IMG/VR virus record: IMGVR_UViG_3300020448_000056
Coordinates: 1 to 20,406 of that record
Reading direction: 5' to 3' (one strand)
DNA from: a virus
DNA length: 20,406 nucleotides
Of the stretch, positions 1-20,406 are shown piece by piece (the first letter of the stretch is position 1; each line of letters starts with the position of its first letter). The notes under the pieces are model-generated. The model had not been told where the DNA came from, did not search any database, and saw only the letters and a program-made list of their open reading frames with translations. Both the position numbers and the translations under genes were made by a program.

Positions 1-3000
1 ATAACAAAAAATGGTGTACCTCCAGGAATAACTGTAATGCATGAGTTAGGTCATTGGGCTTATGCTAATGTATTAGATGCAAGTCAAAAGAAACATTTCT
101 GGAACACTATGGCTAAATATGTTGTTGATGAGGGTGTAGACTTTGATGCTTTAAAAAGAAGATTACCAGGCGATCCATCTATAGGGAATGAACTTTCATC
201 TCCTTCTGAATTCTTTGCTCAACAATTTGTTCAATATGCTATTGCTCAAAACAAAGCTGGTGGCAAGGCAGATGTCATTAGTATGTGGAAGAGAATGGGT
301 AGAGTCATTAATGAAGTTATCCAAAGATGGTTCGGTATGGGTAAAGGTGCAGATGGATCAAAGGCTGTTGATATGGCTGCTATAGATCCTGATCTAATAC
401 CTTTGTTTCAAAGAATATTCCCAGACCGAGATCCAGTAAATAGATATGCAGACCTAGCGTCTAAATTTAAGAATGCAGATAACAGAACAAAGTACAGGTT
501 GTCTGTATTAATGGATTTAGATGATGTCAGAATGAAAATTGACAAAGCCCTAAATGGTAGCCATGAAGAAATGTTAGCTGCCTTAGGCGGTAGAGGAATG
601 GAATCTGATAGACCAAGTGTTGCAACGGTTCTTAACTCTTACCTTAGAAACGCAAGTGGACCTAACAAGCAAAAGAAAAGATTTGGAAATCCAACTAAAA
701 ACAGAAGAATACGATCTGCTGATAGAAAGCAATTCTTTGAAGAAGGAGAATTGGTAGACATAGAGGGTTCTGTTCCAAGACACAGAAACCAATCTGATTA
801 TCATACCTTTATGAAGATAACAGATTCGTATTGGAAGGTAATTAACCACGCAAAAAAAATGCGTGACCCAAGATTTACGGGTAAAGGTGAATATGAAATA
901 GCTACTGCTGGACAATATTTAGGAGCATTAGAAGAAACAGCAGGTAAAGGTAAGAAGGGTGCTATTGATGTAGCTAATGCAAGAGAGATTATGAAGCTAC
1001 ACAGAGAGCAGTTATTAGATGACGCTGGTTTTTCAGATACTCCAGGTATGTCAACTAGAAGCCTTGATGATTACGAAGTAGATATTAGTGGTGGTAATGT
1101 TTCTCCTACAGCCTTGATAGCTGAGAACGCTATGGCTAACGCAGCTCCAGACAATATAGACCAAGTTGCTATAACTAGAGCACTAGCCTTTGATGTTTTA
1201 GGTTCGTTAGAAGCTGCAGAAAAAAGATTAAGAAGACAACTACACAATGTCTTTGGTGAAATGGACGGATTTGATATTACTACTCAAGCAGGTGCTGATG
1301 GAACGGTATCATTAAAAGGATCTAAAAATAAAACAACTAAGAGATTTAGAACCCTTAACGCCAAGAGAAAGAATGACAATGTAAAGAATCAACTTACTAA
1401 ACAAGTTAAAGAAATAGAGAAGCTTGAAAAACAAGCCGACAAGATTTTAAAACAAGGACTTAAGAAAGAAGGCAAGGATCAACTTATAGTTAAGTCTCCT
1501 AAAGACATGTCTGTTAGAGAGATAGCAGATGAAAGTTTAGGCACTAAAAAACAATCAGCCAGAACAATGGACTTGTCTGCTGAGTTAGTTCAGAAGCTAT
1601 TATCTGAACCAGAAGTTCCTGAGTTTGGTCAAATAAAAAAAGCAATAGAAGCAGATCCATCATTGGCTATGTTGTCAAATGGTCGTCCAGCAAACACGCC
1701 TGCTGAATTTGTTCAATTGTTACAGGAAGGTTTTAACCAAGGATATCAAGCAAGAATGGACTACGCTATGTATGTCCTTAGAAACCAACCAGATGGTCTA
1801 AACTTAATACCTAAAGATCCTACAGTTAAGAGAATGGTGATTAGGGAATCACAACAAAACAAAGGTGTAAGTGGAGAGAACGGGATACCTGCTAAAACTC
1901 CCGTCTACATAAAAGAATTTTTAAGAAAAATAACTCACAGAGATCCTATTGTTGAGAACAACGCTAGAACATTTACTTACAGATTGCTTAATGTTTTAGG
2001 TAAAACTCAGTTTAATAAAGCTGAAACAAACAACTTCCTTACTATGGATGATGTTGGAATATTCTTTCCTGAAACTTATTTTGGTGCAAACTACGGAACC
2101 TTTGAACATGTTAATCATGGAGAAACCTTAAATGTAGTTAGAAAAGCTGCCAGAAAAATTGCCACTTCTTTGAAGAAAGGCAAAACAAAAATAGATTATA
2201 CTGATCCTAATGTAGATCGTAACCCAGTAGGTAGAGATCGTACAATTGTAGACGAAGCTGCTTATATGCTTTACCACGGAGGCTTTGACGAAGATAACAA
2301 ATTAAATGTTATAAATGCTTATAAAGAAGCTCTTGAGAATGGAGAAGCTCGTGCTGTTAAAATATCAGAAGCTGATGCCGCTAGAGTACAAGACGGTAGA
2401 TTTGACAGAACAGCTATGTCTGCAGCCAAATGGTTTATTGATGGATTTGATTCTTTAATTACACAAAAAACAAATAAGAAAGCTTTGTATGCTGGTCTTT
2501 CTAATCAAGCAGATATGGAAGCCAATGTTGATAAGCTAACTGAACATGTTGCTTATACTTTTAATAAGTTAATGGGCAACAAAACACTAAGACAAAGATA
2601 TAGATATCTGACTTATTTTGGTGACATGCACTATGATGCAGCGTCTTCTCATCCTATTAAGAAATCCGTAGACCAAACTGGTAATAGTGGAACACTACAT
2701 CTGGCTAAGAAATATGCTCAAGAGACTATAGATAGTTTTGATGATGCAACTGAAACAGCTCATCGTGAGTTTTTAGCTGCAAGACCACACGATAACTTAA
2801 TTGATTATGTATATTATCATGGCACTCCTAATGGTGATGCTTTTAATAAATATATAGGTGGAGGTGCACCTAGAGCTTCTAGTGCAGATTCTTTATTTGG
2901 ACCTGGATTATATCTAGCTAAAGATCCTACAGCATCAGAAACATACGCAAGATTTACTCATAAAAATTCTTTGAAGGCTATGGTAGACAGTGATGATCCA

Positions 3001-6000
3001 GATATCATAGCTGTTACAGATGAAATTATAGACGATATCATGGAGAATAATTATAAGCTTAATGATATAGCAAGAGAGTATGCTGGTAGAGACATAAGAA
3101 ACTCTACTGTAGCAAGAGTAAATGAGATTGAAAATGGCGTAGTAGACGGCATTGATGGAGATCCAGCATATAGAATGGTACAAGACTCTCAAGCATATGA
3201 AAGATTAATGCTTAAGAATGAAGAATTATTTGAAAGGTTAAGTCAATTTACAAGCGTAAAGAGAAATCCAAAAGTAGTTCCTTTCTTTGTTAAAGCAAAC
3301 AACATGTTTGATTTTAGTGAAAATGCTTCTTATTCAGTGGGAACTGGACAAGCATCAGACATATCATTCTTAATGAAAGAATTAAACTCAACTGGTTTAA
3401 TGAAAGAGAATGAAGCTTCCAGATTATTAAATGAATTTAAGTTGCAGGGAGAACTTGATGGAGCAGACTTTTATCAAAACTTAGTTGATAGTCTTGCAGT
3501 AGGTGGAAGAAGTGATGCTGAAGCAAAAACTTTGATATCTAGAATGTTTACAAAACTAGGATACGATGGCTTCTTAATTACAGAACCACACCCAGTAACT
3601 AATGAAGTTGTTGACGCTATAGTAATTAACTCTAAGCAAAGCTTGCGTACTGTAGACGCAAATGTTGAAGATAGTGTCGTCAATCCTCCTTTTGCACAAG
3701 ATAAAGTTGGTAAGTATCAATCTTTAAATGGTCAATTGCTACAAGATATAGTTGAGTTAAACAAAACATTATCAGATGGAGACTATGTAAACATTGGATC
3801 TCAAGCACAAAAACTAGGTATGCCTGATGCTATGCAAGGTTTCATAAAGAAAACTTTAAAAAAAGAAATCCCTGATATTGATGATGTTAAGGTTATAGAA
3901 AAAAATTATAGAACCAACTTCCTTAGTGAGAACTCTGCACATCTTAGAAAAATAGGTGCAGAATGGTTAGGTAATATAATGAAACCTAAAGATGGAGTAG
4001 GTATATATCAAATGCATGCAGCTGACTTAGCTAAAAAAGTTCAGCCAGTTATGACTATGCTACAAAAATTACCTGATTATGGTAATGGTGTTAAAAGATA
4101 TATTAACAAGACCGCACCTTTCTTTAAGGCAATACCACTTGTTGGCAAGGCTGTCCCAGATTCAACACTGGCACCACCAGCATCACATAAAAGAATTATT
4201 AGAGCTATGAGAGCTGGAGATATAAGTCGTTTACCAGATGCAGAAAAACAAATAGCTAACCATTTAGTTGGTTTATTTAAAAAAGAACTAAATGATATGC
4301 ATGCTCTTGGTATACCAGTAGGAGATGTTACTCTTCGTAGTGGAACTAAATACTATGTTCCTCAGATATGGAACGCAGATATAGTAAGAGAAAGACCAAA
4401 GGCATTTGTTGAAGCTATAGAAAGATTTATTATAAAAGAAAAAAGAGCAGAGGGCATACAACCTAACGCAGCTGAAGTTTCTGAAATAGCATCTCAAATG
4501 ATGAAAAGAATCATAGACACTGATGGTAGGATTGATGTTGATGTGGATGCTAGAACTTCTGGAATCAGTAGTGATCCATTCTATCAAAGGTTTATAACAC
4601 TTGACAAAGATAGCTACCCTGAGTTTGCAGACTATTTGGTAGACGATTTAGAGGGTGTAATAACTAAATACTTTGATAAGACCACAAGAAAAATGCTTAT
4701 GGCTAAGAAGTTTGGTGCAGGGGGACACGGTCTAAACGCATACACAGTAACTTCTAAGTTAGGCGTAGACGGTGCAGCGGATATATTAAGTCAAAACAAA
4801 TTAATAAGTATGTCAAGATCAACTGATGATGCTGTTCTTGAAGTATCTCATGTAGTAATACCTACACCTACACAAATAGACAGAACTGCTCTTAAAAATG
4901 TTCTAAGAGAAATACAATCTAACTTACAAAACACAAATGCTAATACAGCAAGTGCTAAAACAGATGCTGCAAGAAGAAGGTTACTTGCTCTTACAGACAC
5001 TGGAGAACTAAACCAAGCACAAATGACTAACTTAAAAATAAGAATAGATGCAGTTGTTAATGGTTTAAAAGATTTTCCTGGAGGAATGACTGAAGGTTCT
5101 GAGTCATTCATAAGAAGTATTAATGATGTTCTAGAAAGACGACCAATGTCTGATAATAGAATGTTAAACAATGTAAGTAAAAAGATGAGAGCGTTTAACT
5201 CTGTATCTTTACTTGGTTGGACAACTTTAACATCTGCACCTGATATAGCATTACCTCTTATACGAAGTGGTAACTTCAGGGGATGGATGAAAGCTTGGAA
5301 AGATGTAACCTTAGGTAGCCCAGAGTATAGACAAGCAGCCAAAGATATTGGGGTGGGTGTTGAAAACCTAATACACGATAGAATGACACATATGGCTGGT
5401 GATGGCTCACAACAATTCCAGCATGCATTTTTCTATGGTACTGGTCTACAAAGTTGGACAAACTTTATGAGAGAAGTATCAGCTGTTGTTGGCTACAATA
5501 CATTCAAAGCTGAAGCTGATGCTGCACAAAGACTTATAGCTAAAGGTCAGATGGACACTAGAGCTTACAGAAAATCATTAAGATTATTAAAACGATACGG
5601 ACTAGAGTCTTATGGTATGCCTGGAGCAAGAAGAATGGCTGATATAAAAACTGTAGCAGGAGATGATCAGTTTAGATATGCAACCATGAGGTTTGTAAAC
5701 GAAACAATATTTACACCAGATCCAAATGATGTACCTCTTTGGGCACAACATCCTATTGGATCAATGGTATTCCAGTTGAAATCATTCCCACTTATGATGA
5801 TGCGTATGGTATTCGGAGAAGGTGGAGTTACAAGTGAATTTGGAAAAGGAAATTTTGCACCAATGATAGCATTGTTAACAGTTGGTGGTGGTATGGGTAT
5901 GGCAGCCAATACAATAAAAGATTATGCTCTATCTAGAGGTGGCGAAGATGGAAGAAGTAGATCTCCTCGTGACAGACTGTTTAGTAAAACAGCAGTAGGA

Positions 6001-6510
6001 GAAACATTTAAAGTATTCACAGGTGTAGAAGGAGAAGACGCAGACAAATGGTTACGACAAAACCTAGGCGATGAAGCAGATTCATGGTTAGGAAACTATC
6101 TTGAAGGTATCGTAGCCCTTGGTGGTATGGGTCTACTAGCAGAATTATTCTTTAACACTGCAGCACAGGCAGACAATAGATATTATGGTGCAGCTAGAAT
6201 GGTGTCTGCGATTGGTGGTCCGTCTATGGGAGTAACATTTGATGCAGCAGCCAACATTGGTGGTGGTATAGAGTTCGCAAGAGAGAGCGTTGGTCTTGGA
6301 GATGATGGAAGTAACTCAGCAGAGAGAGCATTTACCAGAACATTACTACGAAGAGTACCAGTATTAGGTGGTACAAAACCTTTCACAGAAGGTGGTACAG
6401 ATTTAATAGCTGGAGAACAACAAGGTCGTGGTTCTAAATCAGAGGGTGCGGATATATTTGATGCTATGTCATCAAAAGAATTTGCCAAACTATTTGCTAA
6501 ATTTAAATAG
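1..6510 (+). CDS. Giant phage polyvalent protein (5' partial): zinc-peptidase motif, ADP-ribosyltransferase-like domain
   Basis: The reading frame is open to the left edge (residues ITKNGVPPGITV precede the first Met at 37), so the true start lies outside; about 2169 residues are visible. A zincin motif HELGHW (H14, E15, H18 of the visible part) is followed near nt 190-230 by ELSSPSEFFAQQF, which may supply the third ligand or a family-typical downstream Glu. Nt 2810-3670 look like an ART-PolyVal ADP-ribosyltransferase: YYHGTPNG, then FGPGLYLAKDP, then GYDGFLI and a closing VINSKQSLRTV strand. The region from about nt 5200 to the end has hydrophobic stretches (FQLKSFPLMMMRMVF; APMIALLTVGGGMGMAA), as in C-terminal LPD-type domains of such proteins. 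These giants are thought to be packaged in the virion and injected with the DNA; that role is inferred here. No catalytic residue has been tested by alignment. Confidence 0.85.
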   Translation: MTKNGVPPGITVMHELGHWAYANVLDASQKKHFWNTMAKYVVDEGVDFDALKRRLPGDPSIGNELSSPSEFFAQQFVQYAIAQNKAGGKADVISMWKRMGRVINEVIQRWFGMGKGADGSKAVDMAAIDPDLIPLFQRIFPDRDPVNRYADLASKFKNADNRTKYRLSVLMDLDDVRMKIDKALNGSHEEMLAALGGRGMESDRPSVATVLNSYLRNASGPNKQKKRFGNPTKNRRIRSADRKQFFEEGELVDIEGSVPRHRNQSDYHTFMKITDSYWKVINHAKKMRDPRFTGKGEYEIATAGQYLGALEETAGKGKKGAIDVANAREIMKLHREQLLDDAGFSDTPGMSTRSLDDYEVDISGGNVSPTALIAENAMANAAPDNIDQVAITRALAFDVLGSLEAAEKRLRRQLHNVFGEMDGFDITTQAGADGTVSLKGSKNKTTKRFRTLNAKRKNDNVKNQLTKQVKEIEKLEKQADKILKQGLKKEGKDQLIVKSPKDMSVREIADESLGTKKQSARTMDLSAELVQKLLSEPEVPEFGQIKKAIEADPSLAMLSNGRPANTPAEFVQLLQEGFNQGYQARMDYAMYVLRNQPDGLNLIPKDPTVKRMVIRESQQNKGVSGENGIPAKTPVYIKEFLRKITHRDPIVENNARTFTYRLLNVLGKTQFNKAETNNFLTMDDVGIFFPETYFGANYGTFEHVNHGETLNVVRKAARKIATSLKKGKTKIDYTDPNVDRNPVGRDRTIVDEAAYMLYHGGFDEDNKLNVINAYKEALENGEARAVKISEADAARVQDGRFDRTAMSAAKWFIDGFDSLITQKTNKKALYAGLSNQADMEANVDKLTEHVAYTFNKLMGNKTLRQRYRYLTYFGDMHYDAASSHPIKKSVDQTGNSGTLHLAKKYAQETIDSFDDATETAHREFLAARPHDNLIDYVYYHGTPNGDAFNKYIGGGAPRASSADSLFGPGLYLAKDPTASETYARFTHKNSLKAMVDSDDPDIIAVTDEIIDDIMENNYKLNDIAREYAGRDIRNSTVARVNEIENGVVDGIDGDPAYRMVQDSQAYERLMLKNEELFERLSQFTSVKRNPKVVPFFVKANNMFDFSENASYSVGTGQASDISFLMKELNSTGLMKENEASRLLNEFKLQGELDGADFYQNLVDSLAVGGRSDAEAKTLISRMFTKLGYDGFLITEPHPVTNEVVDAIVINSKQSLRTVDANVEDSVVNPPFAQDKVGKYQSLNGQLLQDIVELNKTLSDGDYVNIGSQAQKLGMPDAMQGFIKKTLKKEIPDIDDVKVIEKNYRTNFLSENSAHLRKIGAEWLGNIMKPKDGVGIYQMHAADLAKKVQPVMTMLQKLPDYGNGVKRYINKTAPFFKAIPLVGKAVPDSTLAPPASHKRIIRAMRAGDISRLPDAEKQIANHLVGLFKKELNDMHALGIPVGDVTLRSGTKYYVPQIWNADIVRERPKAFVEAIERFIIKEKRAEGIQPNAAEVSEIASQMMKRIIDTDGRIDVDVDARTSGISSDPFYQRFITLDKDSYPEFADYLVDDLEGVITKYFDKTTRKMLMAKKFGAGGHGLNAYTVTSKLGVDGAADILSQNKLISMSRSTDDAVLEVSHVVIPTPTQIDRTALKNVLREIQSNLQNTNANTASAKTDAARRRLLALTDTGELNQAQMTNLKIRIDAVVNGLKDFPGGMTEGSESFIRSINDVLERRPMSDNRMLNNVSKKMRAFNSVSLLGWTTLTSAPDIALPLIRSGNFRGWMKAWKDVTLGSPEYRQAAKDIGVGVENLIHDRMTHMAGDGSQQFQHAFFYGTGLQSWTNFMREVSAVVGYNTFKAEADAAQRLIAKGQMDTRAYRKSLRLLKRYGLESYGMPGARRMADIKTVAGDDQFRYATMRFVNETIFTPDPNDVPLWAQHPIGSMVFQLKSFPLMMMRMVFGEGGVTSEFGKGNFAPMIALLTVGGGMGMAANTIKDYALSRGGEDGRSRSPRDRLFSKTAVGETFKVFTGVEGEDADKWLRQNLGDEADSWLGNYLEGIVALGGMGLLAELFFNTAAQADNRYYGAARMVSAIGGPSMGVTFDAAANIGGGIEFARESVGLGDDGSNSAERAFTRTLLRRVPVLGGTKPFTEGGTDLIAGEQQGRGSKSEGADIFDAMSSKEFAKLFAKFK

Positions 6511-6519
6511 AGATGAGAA

Positions 6520-6972
6520 TTGGTATTTGCAGAAATCATAACAGGGATAACCTTAGTCAACAAAGCAGCAGAGCAGATAAAGAAGCTTGTTACAAATGCT
6601 AATGATGTATCTAAACTAGCAAAACACATAGACGATATGTTTGAAGGCGAAAGCCAGATAAACAAAAGAAGAAACAAGAGAAGTATGTTCTCTGTTCATA
6701 GTGTTGCTGAAGAAACAATCAATGCAAAGCTTGCCAGAGAAAGATTAAATGAGATGGGTCAGTTAATAGACCTAAGATTTGGTCACGGAACTTGGGCGGG
6801 TATATTAAAAGAAAGAGCAGACAGAATACACGAAGCTAAAGAAGAAGCAAAAAGAGTTGCTCATAGAAAAAGAATTCAGTATGAAGAAAACATGCAATTG
6901 TTCTGGATAATATTTGGTATTATCTTTGGTGGAGCTTGTATATTATTTGTAATGTTTATTTTACTTGGATAG
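6520..6972 (+). CDS. Small C-terminally membrane-anchored phage protein, function unknown
   Basis: 150 aa starting at TTG, nine bases after the stop of the giant gene. TTG is the only plausible start because an in-frame TGA lies just upstream (6514) and the nearby ATG at 6513 is out of frame; the upstream GAGATGAGAA is only a weak ribosome site, so coupling to the gene before is likely. The N-terminal part (FAEIITGITLVNKAAEQIKK) is amphipathic, the middle is highly charged and helical (EAKEEAKRVAHRKR), and residues 127-149 form one hydrophobic helix. This layout recurs in marine phages next to structural genes, from memory and without a search. It may be a virion or lysis accessory protein; no function is assigned. 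Its end overlaps the convergent gene by 12 bases. Confidence 0.75.
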   Translation: MVFAEIITGITLVNKAAEQIKKLVTNANDVSKLAKHIDDMFEGESQINKRRNKRSMFSVHSVAEETINAKLARERLNEMGQLIDLRFGHGTWAGILKERADRIHEAKEEAKRVAHRKRIQYEENMQLFWIIFGIIFGGACILFVMFILLG

Positions 6973-15963: not shown

Positions 15964-16697
15964 TGGAATACAAAGATGCACCCCAAAGAATTGTAGGAGT
16001 TAATGAAGGTGTAAAACTATTACAACGATTCATCATAATGTATAAACCTACTACTGGCAGTAATGTAAACACTTGGGCAAATTCAGGTGGAACAGCATTT
16101 CCAACTCCAGAATATAGAACTACAACAAATATACTTAGACCAGGTGGCAACTTCTTCACACAAAAAATTACACCCTCTTCAAACAACACAGCTATCTGTG
16201 TAAAATTTCTTGTCTACTCTAGTGGTATGCAGAACATTGAGTTCTGGTATAACTCTTGGGGCAAGGATGTAACTGGTATTGTTCGTTTAGATATTGCAGC
16301 AACATACTATACCGTTTCCGTAGACCTGCCATCTGGTGCTAATATCTCAGATGGACTAGATGAAATACCTTCTTATTCTTGGAATAGTGCGGCTTTACCT
16401 CAGCCTTATAATCAATCGGCAACTAAATCTTATGTCTACCCACATTGGATGAAGATAGAGGAATGGGAAAACGGTGATCCAAATCATCCACAAGTTAAAT
16501 ACTGGACAGACCCTGGTCACGATGGAGTTAAATCAAACCAAACTCACCCCATTAATCATCAAACTGGTAAGACTTATGTAATGAATGAAGAATTTAATTC
16601 TGATTATGCTAATAAATATACACTAAAAAAAGATGGTAACCACCAAGATGGTGTCCCTTTCAAAGGAGAAGTGAATAAGGATGGAGGGTACGATTAA
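15963..16697 (+). CDS. 244-aa protein of unknown function, possibly virion or appendage
   Basis: The protein is rich in Asn, Thr, Tyr and Trp with predicted beta strands and no membrane helix (for example GGNFFTQKITPSSNNTAIC, IEFWYNSWGKD, TYYTVSVDLPSG). The C-terminal half is hydrophilic with many His, Asn and Lys residues (VKYWTDPGHDG, NQTHPINHQTGKTY) and looks loosely folded. Such composition is common in phage structural or receptor-contact proteins, but no motif is recognised and this is only a suggestion. The start and stop both use TAATG overlaps with neighbouring small genes. A member of an accessory cargo cassette is the other possibility. Confidence 0.6.
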   Translation: MEYKDAPQRIVGVNEGVKLLQRFIIMYKPTTGSNVNTWANSGGTAFPTPEYRTTTNILRPGGNFFTQKITPSSNNTAICVKFLVYSSGMQNIEFWYNSWGKDVTGIVRLDIAATYYTVSVDLPSGANISDGLDEIPSYSWNSAALPQPYNQSATKSYVYPHWMKIEEWENGDPNHPQVKYWTDPGHDGVKSNQTHPINHQTGKTYVMNEEFNSDYANKYTLKKDGNHQDGVPFKGEVNKDGGYD

Positions 16698-16948
16698 TGC
16701 CAGAGATGACAATGATATGGAATGCCATACTCACCGTGGCTGGTGGATCTTTAGTATGGTGGATAAGGGGGGTATCTGTGAAAATAGATGAAATAGAACG
16801 AACCGTGTACGAAGCAAAGACTGAGATGGCTAGAGAATATGCGTCTAAAAAAGATTTAAGGTTATCAATGGACGACCTGGGGCGTAGATTTGATAAGATA
16901 GAAGAGAAGATAGACACGGTTTTGATTAAAATAAAAGTGTCAGACTAA
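16697..16948 (+). CDS. 83-aa single-pass membrane protein with coiled coil
   Basis: Residues 6-23 (MIWNAILTVAGGSLVWWI) form one membrane helix, followed by an Arg and a long charged coiled coil (KIDEIERTVYEAKTEMAREY; DDLGRRFDKIEEKIDTVLIKI). The layout matches the 62-aa protein at 6961 (short N terminus, membrane helix, coiled coil), though the sequences are not obviously related. It could be a holin-like or anchor protein. Translation is coupled to the gene before through TAATG. The function is unknown. Confidence 0.65.
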   Translation: MPEMTMIWNAILTVAGGSLVWWIRGVSVKIDEIERTVYEAKTEMAREYASKKDLRLSMDDLGRRFDKIEEKIDTVLIKIKVSD

Positions 16949-16963
16949 GAAAGGACCAAACAT

Positions 16964-17071
16964 ATGCCAAAAGTTGGTAATAAAAAGTTTGCCTACACTA
17001 AAAAGGGTAAAGCAAAAGCTAAAGCTTACGCTAAAAAGACTGGCAAAAAAATGAAGTCTAAGAAATATTAA
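16964..17071 (+). CDS. 35-aa Lys-rich phage microprotein of the MPKVGNKKF type
   Basis: The sequence is MPKVGNKKFAYTKKGKAKA, then KAYAKKTGKKMKSKKY. AAGGA lies eight bases before the ATG. The pattern MPKVGxKKFxYTKKG...AKKTGKK is, from memory, a recurrent tiny protein of marine phages, which makes it more credible than its length suggests. More than a third of residues are Lys and there is no acidic residue. It probably binds DNA or RNA, or neutralises packaged DNA; this is inference. Confidence 0.7.
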   Translation: MPKVGNKKFAYTKKGKAKAKAYAKKTGKKMKSKKY

Positions 17072-17094
17072 CCACCAGAGAAAGGAAGAAACCT

Positions 17095-17250
17095 ATGCCA
17101 ATGAGATCTACATACAAAAAGTCTAAGTCTATGAAGCAGAAAGGACAAGCAAAGAAAACTTCTGCTGCAGCGATGAAGGCTAAAAAAGGTACGGTCTACA
17201 GCAAGGCTCGTATGAAGTCTGCTCGTAGAAAAAGCCTTAAAAAAACTTAA
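17095..17250 (+). CDS. 51-aa Lys/Arg/Ser-rich basic microprotein
   Basis: The protein reads MPMRSTYKKSKSMKQKGQAK, then KTSAAAMKAKKGTVYSKARMK, then SARRKSLKKT. GAAAGGAAG precedes the ATG. Like its neighbour at 16964 it has no acidic residue and begins MP, but its Ser/Ala/Lys composition is closer to histone-H1-like tails. The two genes are 23 bases apart and are probably co-expressed. A nucleic-acid-binding or virion-packaged role is inferred only from charge. Confidence 0.62.
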   Translation: MPMRSTYKKSKSMKQKGQAKKTSAAAMKAKKGTVYSKARMKSARRKSLKKT

Positions 17251-17256
17251 TCTAAC

Positions 17257-17263
17257 AGGTAGG
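17257..17263 (+). promoter_or_regulatory. Ribosome site supporting an AUU start of the HNH gene
   Basis: AGGTAGG ends eight bases before ATT at 17272. A GTG at 17267 lies closer but opens a frame that stops after 14 codons. The position of this site decides the start assigned to the HNH gene. Confidence 0.45.
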
Positions 17264-17271
17264 TAAGTGCG

Positions 17272-17775
17272 ATTTCCACAGCGTCCAAAGTTTGTAGAGT
17301 ATGTGGTATAACCAAACCACATACTTCTTTTTATCAAGATTGGAACAATAGGAGAGGTACGCGAGTTGCGTATCGCCGTTCTATATGTAGTTCCTGCGTA
17401 GGAAAAAAACGGAGAATCCGTTGGTGCAAAACTCCTGAGTCTTTTATCAAGCGTCTATTCATTCAGTTACGGTCCAGAAGGTTAGCTCAAGGCATGGTCG
17501 TAGACATAGACCACGATTACATTATTGAACTTTACTATAAACAAGATGGTAAGTGTGCGTTATCAGGTGCAAAGTTAACGCACCTATCATCTAATAAACT
17601 CCCAGCATTCAATAAAAATCCCAACAATATAAGTATTGATAGAAAGGATACGACAAAAGGATATATAAATGGTAACATCCAATTAGTGTGTAAGAGGGTT
17701 AACCTTATGAAACACACACTAACGGATAGACAATTTAAAATATGGATAAAGAGAATATTAAAACACTGGTTATAA
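17272..17775 (+). CDS. HNH endonuclease with N-terminal zinc ribbon, probable AUU start
   Basis: The frame is open from the TAG at 17260 to the stop at 17775. The only standard start in it is ATG 17494, but that would remove a clear zinc ribbon encoded upstream: C8-x2-C11 (KVCRVCGITKPHTSFYQD) and C39-x2-C42 (SICSSCVGKKRR). The C-terminal part has the HNH/recombination-nuclease blocks YKQDGKCALSGAKLT, NNISIDRKDTTKGYINGN and VNLMKHTL. The frame contains no ATG, GTG, TTG or CTG before 17494. ATT at 17272, eight bases after AGGTAGG, gives (M)STASKVCRVCG, a natural N terminus, and 167 aa. Free-standing HNH genes of this kind are common homing-type insertions in phages. A sequencing error or mutated start codon is the main alternative. 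Confidence 0.75.
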   Translation: MSTASKVCRVCGITKPHTSFYQDWNNRRGTRVAYRRSICSSCVGKKRRIRWCKTPESFIKRLFIQLRSRRLAQGMVVDIDHDYIIELYYKQDGKCALSGAKLTHLSSNKLPAFNKNPNNISIDRKDTTKGYINGNIQLVCKRVNLMKHTLTDRQFKIWIKRILKHWL

Positions 17776-17969
17776 TGATGCACCCTGATGCAGTGCCGAT
17801 GCCTACTATAGAAGTGGCACCATCCTCTGTCCTTATAAATTTTCCTGCAAAAATAAATGGTAAGTTATTCTGGCAAGGTCTACAACTTTCACCTGAAGAG
17901 GCTATAGAAACAGGTATGATGTTGATGGCAGGTGCAGAGGAGAGTATGGAAAAAGACTTTGATGCCTAG
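17775..17969 (+). CDS. 64-aa acidic protein of unknown function
   Basis: The start chosen is 17775, where the stop of the HNH gene and this ATG share bases (TAATG); a second ATG follows at once. A longer frame from 17742 lies inside the HNH gene without a ribosome site. The protein begins MMHPDAVPMPTIEVAP and has a strand-like SSVLINFPAKINGKLFWQGL, then an acidic helix PEEAIETGMMLMAGAEESME. It could be a small DNA-mimic-like or regulatory protein, but that rests on charge only. Its stop overlaps the next gene by eight bases. Confidence 0.6.
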   Translation: MMHPDAVPMPTIEVAPSSVLINFPAKINGKLFWQGLQLSPEEAIETGMMLMAGAEESMEKDFDA

Positions 17970-19968: not shown

Positions 19969-20406
19969 TTATAATGTTAATGTTTTTGAGATATATTTCT
20001 CGGCTCTACTTCGTACCCAACCTCTATATCTCATTGTCTGAGATATATCTTTGTGTCCTAGTAGTAATTGAATGTCGCCTAAATCGGCTCCACCTTGAGC
20101 AATAAGGTAAGCGAATGTGTGTCTTAGGTCGTGAACTCTCACATTCCTCGTTACTCCTACTCCTCTTAACAATGCTCGTAATATACTATTCAACTTCTTT
20201 GAACGCACATTATCAAACATTATTCCCTTGGCTTTTGAGCCAAAGAAATCTTGTAATTCCTTATCTGCTATAGGTATTGCCCTTGAATTAGTCTTACTAT
20301 TCTTGGCATACTTGTGAACAAACAAGGTATTTGTTGTTCCATCGTATGAGCTGTGATCTAATTGCAACAACTCTCCTAGCCGTAGACCGCAGAAAATAAG
20401 GGTTCT
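19969..20406 (-). CDS. int: Tyrosine site-specific recombinase (phage integrase), 5' partial
   Basis: The frame continues to the right edge of the window: the 12 codons before the TTG at 20370 read RTLIFCGLRLGE, holding the first catalytic Arg of the family (G-L-R-x-G-E), so that TTG is not the start. In the visible 145 residues the rest of the catalytic set is present: a Lys in the beta-hairpin KYAKNSKTNSR, HDLRH (H92, R95), LLGHKD (H118) and the nucleophile Tyr (Y127 in TMRYRG). The N-terminal DNA-binding part is missing only because of the window. It would integrate the phage at a host att site. No att core is seen here, and it probably lies beyond the right edge. Confidence 0.93.
   Translation of the reverse strand, partial: RTLIFCGLRLGELLQLDHSSYDGTTNTLFVHKYAKNSKTNSRAIPIADKELQDFFGSKAKGIMFDNVRSKKLNSILRALLRGVGVTRNVRVHDLRHTFAYLIAQGGADLGDIQLLLGHKDISQTMRYRGWVRSRAEKYISKTLTL

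Follow-up and report, generated by a model that had tools for sequence, protein, structure and literature searches.

Where does translation begin in a phage nuclease gene whose open frame holds no canonical start codon ahead of its zinc ribbon? This question is raised by an HNH / endonuclease VII-like gene in the IMG/VR virus record IMGVR_UViG_3300020448_000056, a single record whose 20,406 bases make up the whole stretch of DNA analysed here (the window). An earlier reading of the bare letters (the sequence-only reading) had proposed that the gene starts at a rare AUU codon at 17272, either to limit a selfish nuclease or as the mark of a decaying homing gene. The locus was compared with relatives fetched through the neighbouring genes and the HNH protein. 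Coordinates are collected in Table 1.

Table 1. Features of the HNH locus, in window coordinates
Feature	Position	Strand	Remark
83-aa gene	16697..16948	+	syntenic; upstream of the HNH gene
Small Lys/Arg-rich protein 'basicB', 51 aa	17095..17250	+	adjoins the HNH gene in 12/12 clade contigs
18-nt leader	17254..17271	+	identical in window, L004, L005, L009
Shine-Dalgarno-like AGGTAGG	17257..17263	+	ends 8 nt 5' of ATT; identical in L004, L005, L009
In-frame TAG	17260..17262	+	closes the HNH frame upstream
TAA	17264..17266	+	ends 5 nt before ATT; in frame with the upstream gene in L004, L005, out of frame in window
Out-of-frame GTG (rival start)	17267..17269	+
Proposed start codon ATT (AUU)	17272..17274	+	ATT: window, L004, L005, L009, L013, L038; ATC: L006, L008; ATA: L037
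HNH / endonuclease VII-like nuclease gene (predicted)	17272..17775	+	167 aa from the proposed AUU; phrog_1035, predicted structure
Zinc ribbon CxxC...CxxC (Cys8, 11, 39, 42)	17293..17397	+	all 5' of the first ATG
First in-frame ATG (Met75)	17494..17496	+	not conserved in L004, L005, L006, L008, L009, L013
HNH (beta-beta-alpha metal) core, residues 75-167 (predicted)	17494..17772	+	predicted structure; PacI and T4 endonuclease VII alignments
75-aa gene	17742..17969	+	downstream; overlaps the HNH end by 34 bases

The HNH frame opens without a canonical start codon

The open HNH frame extends from 17263 to 17775 and is preceded by an in-frame TAG. A scan of its 77 codons from 17263 to 17493 returned no ATG, GTG, TTG or CTG, and the complete zinc ribbon that the sequence-only reading had placed upstream of the ATG at 17494 is encoded there, with cysteines at 17293, 17302, 17386 and 17395; both observations of that reading therefore stand. 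Among 28 hand-picked genes of the window (the large gene at 1-6510 and the integrase being left aside), 27 had a canonical start by codon 22 of the open frame, one of them, the gene at 6961, being without a relative for comparison. The HNH gene alone had to wait until codon 78, where its first canonical start sits deep inside the conserved frame.

A conserved zinc ribbon precedes the first ATG

The HNH protein of the window matches phrog_1035 (endonuclease VII) over residues 4-166 with an E value of 2.2e-24. Its predicted structure (mean pLDDT 90.8) includes the zinc ribbon as part of the fold. PacI superimposes on the model over 111 residues (Z 8.4, rmsd 4.2) and is also the best PDB entry found by Foldseek, there with an E value of only 1.2e-3, and ribbon residues 1-47 of the predicted structure align with Hpy99I (Z 5.7, 45 residues, rmsd 3.7). 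The product resembles T4 endonuclease VII (gene 49) in its phrog_1035 match and in its HNH core, of which residues 75-157 align with residues 1-74 of the T4 enzyme (1e7l, Z 4.3). It differs from that enzyme in carrying a zinc ribbon before the core and in the Pfam search, where no Endonuclease_7 (PF02945) match was listed for the window protein and 1 of 58 family members matched, at E 0.0067; NCBIfam likewise gave no match for the window protein. From these sequence and model comparisons the gene product is predicted to be an endonuclease VII-like / HNH nuclease.

Eight residues (C8, C11, C39, C42, D123, R124, N135 and N144) are invariant among 58 aligned family sequences. In the part of the gene before 17494, L004 and L005 differ by 1 nonsynonymous and 10 synonymous changes (dN/dS 0.03), and L006 and L008 by 1 and 6 (dN/dS 0.05); between the window and L004 the synonymous sites of this part are saturated. 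In a second branch of the family, described below, dN/dS over the N-terminal 80 codons is 0.07-0.12. Judged from these substitution counts, purifying selection acts on the zinc-ribbon part before the first ATG, which is hence translated. The constraint on the N-terminal part is strong, and the idea that the gene is decaying finds no support.

A near-cognate codon is conserved at the proposed start site

The ATT at 17272 is the sole AUH codon (AUU, AUC or AUA) upstream of the first cysteine, five more lying further in. The sequence-only reading was correct in placing AGGTAGG at a suitable distance from it, the gap being 8 nt. Pairing of this leader with the anti-Shine-Dalgarno sequence was calculated at -7.9 kcal/mol, and pairing was stronger at 5 of the 23 other gene starts scored (the ranking left out the 'primase' entry and one alternative start of the 75-aa gene).

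In L004, L005 and L009, whose HNH proteins are 73-74% identical to that of the window, the bases from the Shine-Dalgarno sequence to the ATT are the same without any indel, and the spacer that separates this block from the upstream stop differs by a few bases. With L031 and L073 counted, the block recurs in five relatives in all, four of them IMG/VR contigs and one a MAG contig. Since only 19 of 39 fourfold-degenerate sites are identical in the window, L004 and L005, 18 identical leader bases would be expected by chance with a probability of roughly 2e-6. The upstream stop lies 21 nt before the ATT in the window, 23 nt in L004 and 17 nt in L005, so that in the window clade the upstream gene does not terminate at the TAA that ends 5 nt 5' of the ATT.

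The clade, defined as the 12 contigs in which the HNH gene adjoins the small basic gene, was then considered as a whole. Ten of the 12 contigs lack any ATG, GTG or TTG from the last in-frame stop up to the first cysteine. The codon at the homologous start site is AUU, AUC or AUA, and AUG in none of the 12: it is ATC in L033/L035 (the same contigs as, or near-copies of, L006/L008), ATT in L036 (related in the same way to L013), ATA in L037 and ATT in L038. In these four lineages the AUH codon stands exactly 4 nt past the upstream stop, and over the clade it stands 4 to 9 codons before the first cysteine. With its spacing fixed relative to the upstream gene and variable relative to the cysteine, the AUH codon looks conserved as a signal rather than as a residue. 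AUH codons make up 7.5% of the codons of these genes (72/961), so that agreement in five lineages would have a chance probability near 2e-6, a rough figure, the lineages being related and the position having been noticed afterwards. The sole canonical start of L037 is an ATG 30 codons 5' of the cysteine, within the neighbouring gene. In L038 an ATG stands three codons 5' of the cysteine and is itself preceded, five codons earlier, by the ATT; this lineage may therefore use AUG. With the exception of L038, a non-canonical start is conserved and no canonical one lies within reach.

Other signals around the start were less marked. The more distant lineages have a weak Shine-Dalgarno sequence or none (-5.9 to +0.6 kcal/mol, versus -7.9 in the window clade). 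Synonymous conservation in the first ten HNH codons was not significant (6/10 versus 51/108, p = 0.33). A hairpin spanning the start in the RNA came out of the predictions for several lineages and was rejected as a candidate, as the fold around the start was no better than that of shuffled sequence in the five lineages analysed, one sequence each (z -0.15 to -1.56).

No relative at the locus has an ATG at the site, none shows an indel that would bring the GTG at 17267 into frame, and L004, L005, L006, L008, L009 and L013 have no start codon in the place of 17494. The best reading is the one first proposed, an AUU start at 17272. We put at about 0.8 the probability that the gene encodes a working, vertically inherited endonuclease VII-like HNH phage nuclease translated from a near-cognate AUH codon, AUU 17272 in the window.

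Start codons in the wider nuclease family

A census of the family, for which 80 of at least 573 relatives were kept, near-copies included, covered 96 distinct ORFs. Of these, 8 were dropped for want of a recognised zinc ribbon, and all counts over the remaining 88 refer to this sample. In 14 of the 88, the stretch from the last in-frame stop to the first cysteine contained no ATG, GTG, TTG or CTG. The other 74 comprised 52 with an ATG 3-7 codons before the cysteine, 15 with another canonical codon within 12, and 7 whose canonical start lies only farther off, including L037 at 30 codons; in L002, L056, L061, L165, L172 and L175 an ATG stands 18-19 codons 5' of the cysteine.

The 14 start-less ORFs of this sample fall into two branches of the tree, which was used for branching only and in which identical proteins were entered once. 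One branch is the window clade with L033, L035 and L036 (7 tree rows, support 99/97). The other holds L050, L052, L053 and L062 (4 tree rows, support 100/96), with L054 and L063 already represented. In the six contigs of this second branch the gene lies near 1920-1960, its upstream neighbour is a different gene whose end it overlaps, and GGAG is followed after 9 nt by ATT ATA.

With near-copies counted, 53 of the 88 sampled ORFs have the end of an upstream gene no more than 30-35 bases from the first cysteine, and the nuclease family thus often abuts or overlaps its upstream neighbour. The frame offset to that neighbour is +1 in 47 of these 53 and +2 in 6, which may reflect no more than codon use at a Lys/Arg-rich start. 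Among annotated phage homologues, 5 of 111 records were examined and 4 of the 5 have an ATG before the first CxxC (far before, in L205). MT840061, an unverified record, has no ATG in the open stretch before the CxxC, but its frame ends early and nothing was concluded from it. A TTG precedes the first cysteine in L026, a distant relative that was not among the 96 ORFs.

A possible role for the weak start

If the AUH codon is the start, the initiator tRNA would read it weakly and, by analogy with known genes, host IF3 would disfavour it. Poor reading and IF3 together would mean that the nuclease is made in small amounts, with few molecules per message, and scarcity would make sense for an enzyme that cuts DNA. 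In the window clade the strong Shine-Dalgarno sequence would serve the ATT, the upstream stop lying 17-23 nt before it. In the other lineages 4 nt separate the upstream stop from the AUH codon, and ribosomes arriving at the end of the small basic gene would probably initiate there anew (termination-reinitiation). In an E. coli reporter, reinitiation at a 4-nt spacing was half that at a 1-nt spacing, according to PMC2268962.

Distant relatives have a similarly weak start at the corresponding site, and this persistence suggests that the weakness serves a purpose, perhaps that of keeping enzyme levels low. Limitation of the HNH gene by IF3 is plausible on the same analogy. A bolder proposal, which we regard as possible rather than probable, is that the AUH start (AUU, AUC or AUA, never AUG) is an evolved translational throttle in this phage nuclease family, maintained while the proteins diverged by more than 50% and present in the second branch too. 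Output would then depend on host IF3 and on translation of the upstream gene, which might delay the enzyme to late infection.

The most serious rival to this regulatory reading is neutral drift, in which any near-cognate codon would be tolerated next to the upstream stop and AUG would not be selected against. It accepts the AUH start and disputes only its purpose, and is thus no rival to the start itself. Drift would account for the third base varying between T, C and A and for the weak or absent Shine-Dalgarno sequence of some lineages; AUG, however, is one step away and is never found at the start site in the clade. We consider drift rather unlikely.

Rare starts have precedents: pcnB is another gene with an IF3-repressed non-canonical start, and T4 gene 26 has an internal AUU start. 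The infC gene starts with ATT in E. coli and ATC in Streptomyces (PMC5472188), and the proposed start of the HNH gene is likewise a rare AUH codon; unlike infC, in which IF3 regulates itself, the HNH gene encodes a phage nuclease, so that no feedback on its own product arises. Weak third-base start pairs are described as disfavoured by IF3 in vitro (PMC10158994). IF3 also represses Streptomyces sigR, whose start is reported as GTC in 32 of 34 species and GTT in 2 (PMC5472188), a conserved non-canonical start with a varying third base that does not become canonical, as at the HNH locus. The sigR gene has a conserved strong Shine-Dalgarno sequence, whereas that of the HNH gene is strong in the window clade and weak or absent in other lineages, and the regulatory effect on sigR was shown by experiment, whereas the HNH gene is known from sequence comparison alone. 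Borrelia burgdorferi pncA (BBE22) has an AUU start, and its database entry begins later, without a needed N-terminal part (PMC13398362). The likeness to the HNH gene lies in that truncated database protein; pncA differs in being a single, plasmid-borne bacterial gene. Several T4 homing endonuclease genes abut or overlap their upstream neighbour and are thought to be weakly translated (PMC2988022). The free-standing mob and seg genes are in this respect similar phage nuclease genes at or over an upstream stop, but they have AUG starts (GUG is predicted for mobA), whereas the proposed start of the HNH gene is AUH and the gene is fixed at one locus in the clade.

Conserved non-canonical starts are therefore already known from infC, sigR and Borrelia pncA, and none was found for a phage nuclease, with AUU or otherwise, in a literature search whose coverage left out most subscription journals. 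Very few such starts are said to have been studied by experiment, and programs that predict starts depend on ATG, GTG and TTG (PMC5472188). Phage nucleases of this HNH kind may consequently be annotated short, without the zinc ribbon, and a third start base that drifts and is never seen as G offers a natural series for asking whether and why weak starts are selected.

Alternative routes to the zinc ribbon

Four alternatives dispense with the AUH start. In the first, ribosomes would start at the GTG at 17267 and slip -1 into the HNH frame. This codon, which is out of the HNH frame as the sequence-only reading had it, sits 7 nt past the first AGG, and GTG CGA T is common to the window clade and L006/L008, followed in the latter by a run of A. 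The place of the GTG is nevertheless taken by ATA in L013 and by AGA, then CGA TAG, in L037, yet the AUH codon stays, and no long slippery run was seen in the window clade; we judge this route very improbable.

In the second, the nuclease would be a +1 frameshift fusion with the upstream gene near its stop, needing no start codon of its own. The reading frames would allow this in L006/L008, L013, L037 and the second branch (L050, L053, L062), where the HNH frame lies +1 relative to the upstream gene and is not interrupted at that gene's stop. The same +1 phase is, however, equally seen in many family members that have an ATG, and the phase differs elsewhere, being 0 in the window and +2 in L029, L030, L032 and L073. 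In addition, the in-frame TAG at 17260 bars the fusion in the window clade, and no shared residues were seen between the upstream stop and the AUH codon (by eye, unscored). Such a fusion is most improbable.

It is scarcely credible that only a short form of 93 aa, the HNH core alone, is made from the ATG at 17494, with the upstream part a relic: the alignment of residues 75-157 with the start of T4 endonuclease VII makes a core-only protein conceivable, but this ATG is absent in 6 of 6 relatives aligned, the zinc cysteines do not vary among 58 aligned sequences and the region before 17494 is under strong purifying selection. An assembly or sequencing error that hides an ATG or a frame, to which a single virus record might be open, is practically excluded, since the Shine-Dalgarno-AUU block is repeated with identical bases in four other IMG/VR contigs and one MAG contig.

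The HNH gene and its neighbours

The order on the + strand is the 83-aa gene (16697), two Lys/Arg-rich genes (16964 and 17095), the HNH gene and the 75-aa gene (17742). This order is unchanged from the window to L037, whose HNH protein is 40-42% identical, and wherever the small basic gene occurs (12 contigs) the HNH gene is present between the same neighbours. When the upstream 83-aa gene was used to look for empty sites, none came up among 13 loci; L219 and L220 were considered as empty sites and rejected because the small basic gene is missing there too, and the L007/L212 contig ends short of the locus. The patchy presence at one site among near relatives that would mark a free-standing homing endonuclease was thus not seen here. 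Conserved gene order and the lack of an empty site disfavour recent homing in the clade, so the HNH gene appears to behave there as a resident gene, and the proposal of a recently mobile, selfish element is not upheld. The family adjoins other genes in other viruses and has therefore moved at some earlier time.

The two tiny Lys/Arg-rich proteins encoded at 16964-17250 (35 and 51 aa) are 98-100% identical in the nearest relatives where they were found, the adjoining HNH protein being only 73-74% identical. L073 (PANV01000043.1), filed under a Marinimicrobia MAG, is the same virus locus with an HNH protein 74% identical, and its filing is either a hint of the host or a mis-binned virus. At the left end of the window, an open frame of 2169 aa (1-6510) is cut by the window edge and has nothing better than a Pfam hit under the curated cut-off. 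At the right end, 19969-20406 encodes a tyrosine integrase (Phage_integrase, E 3e-13), and the virus may therefore be temperate.
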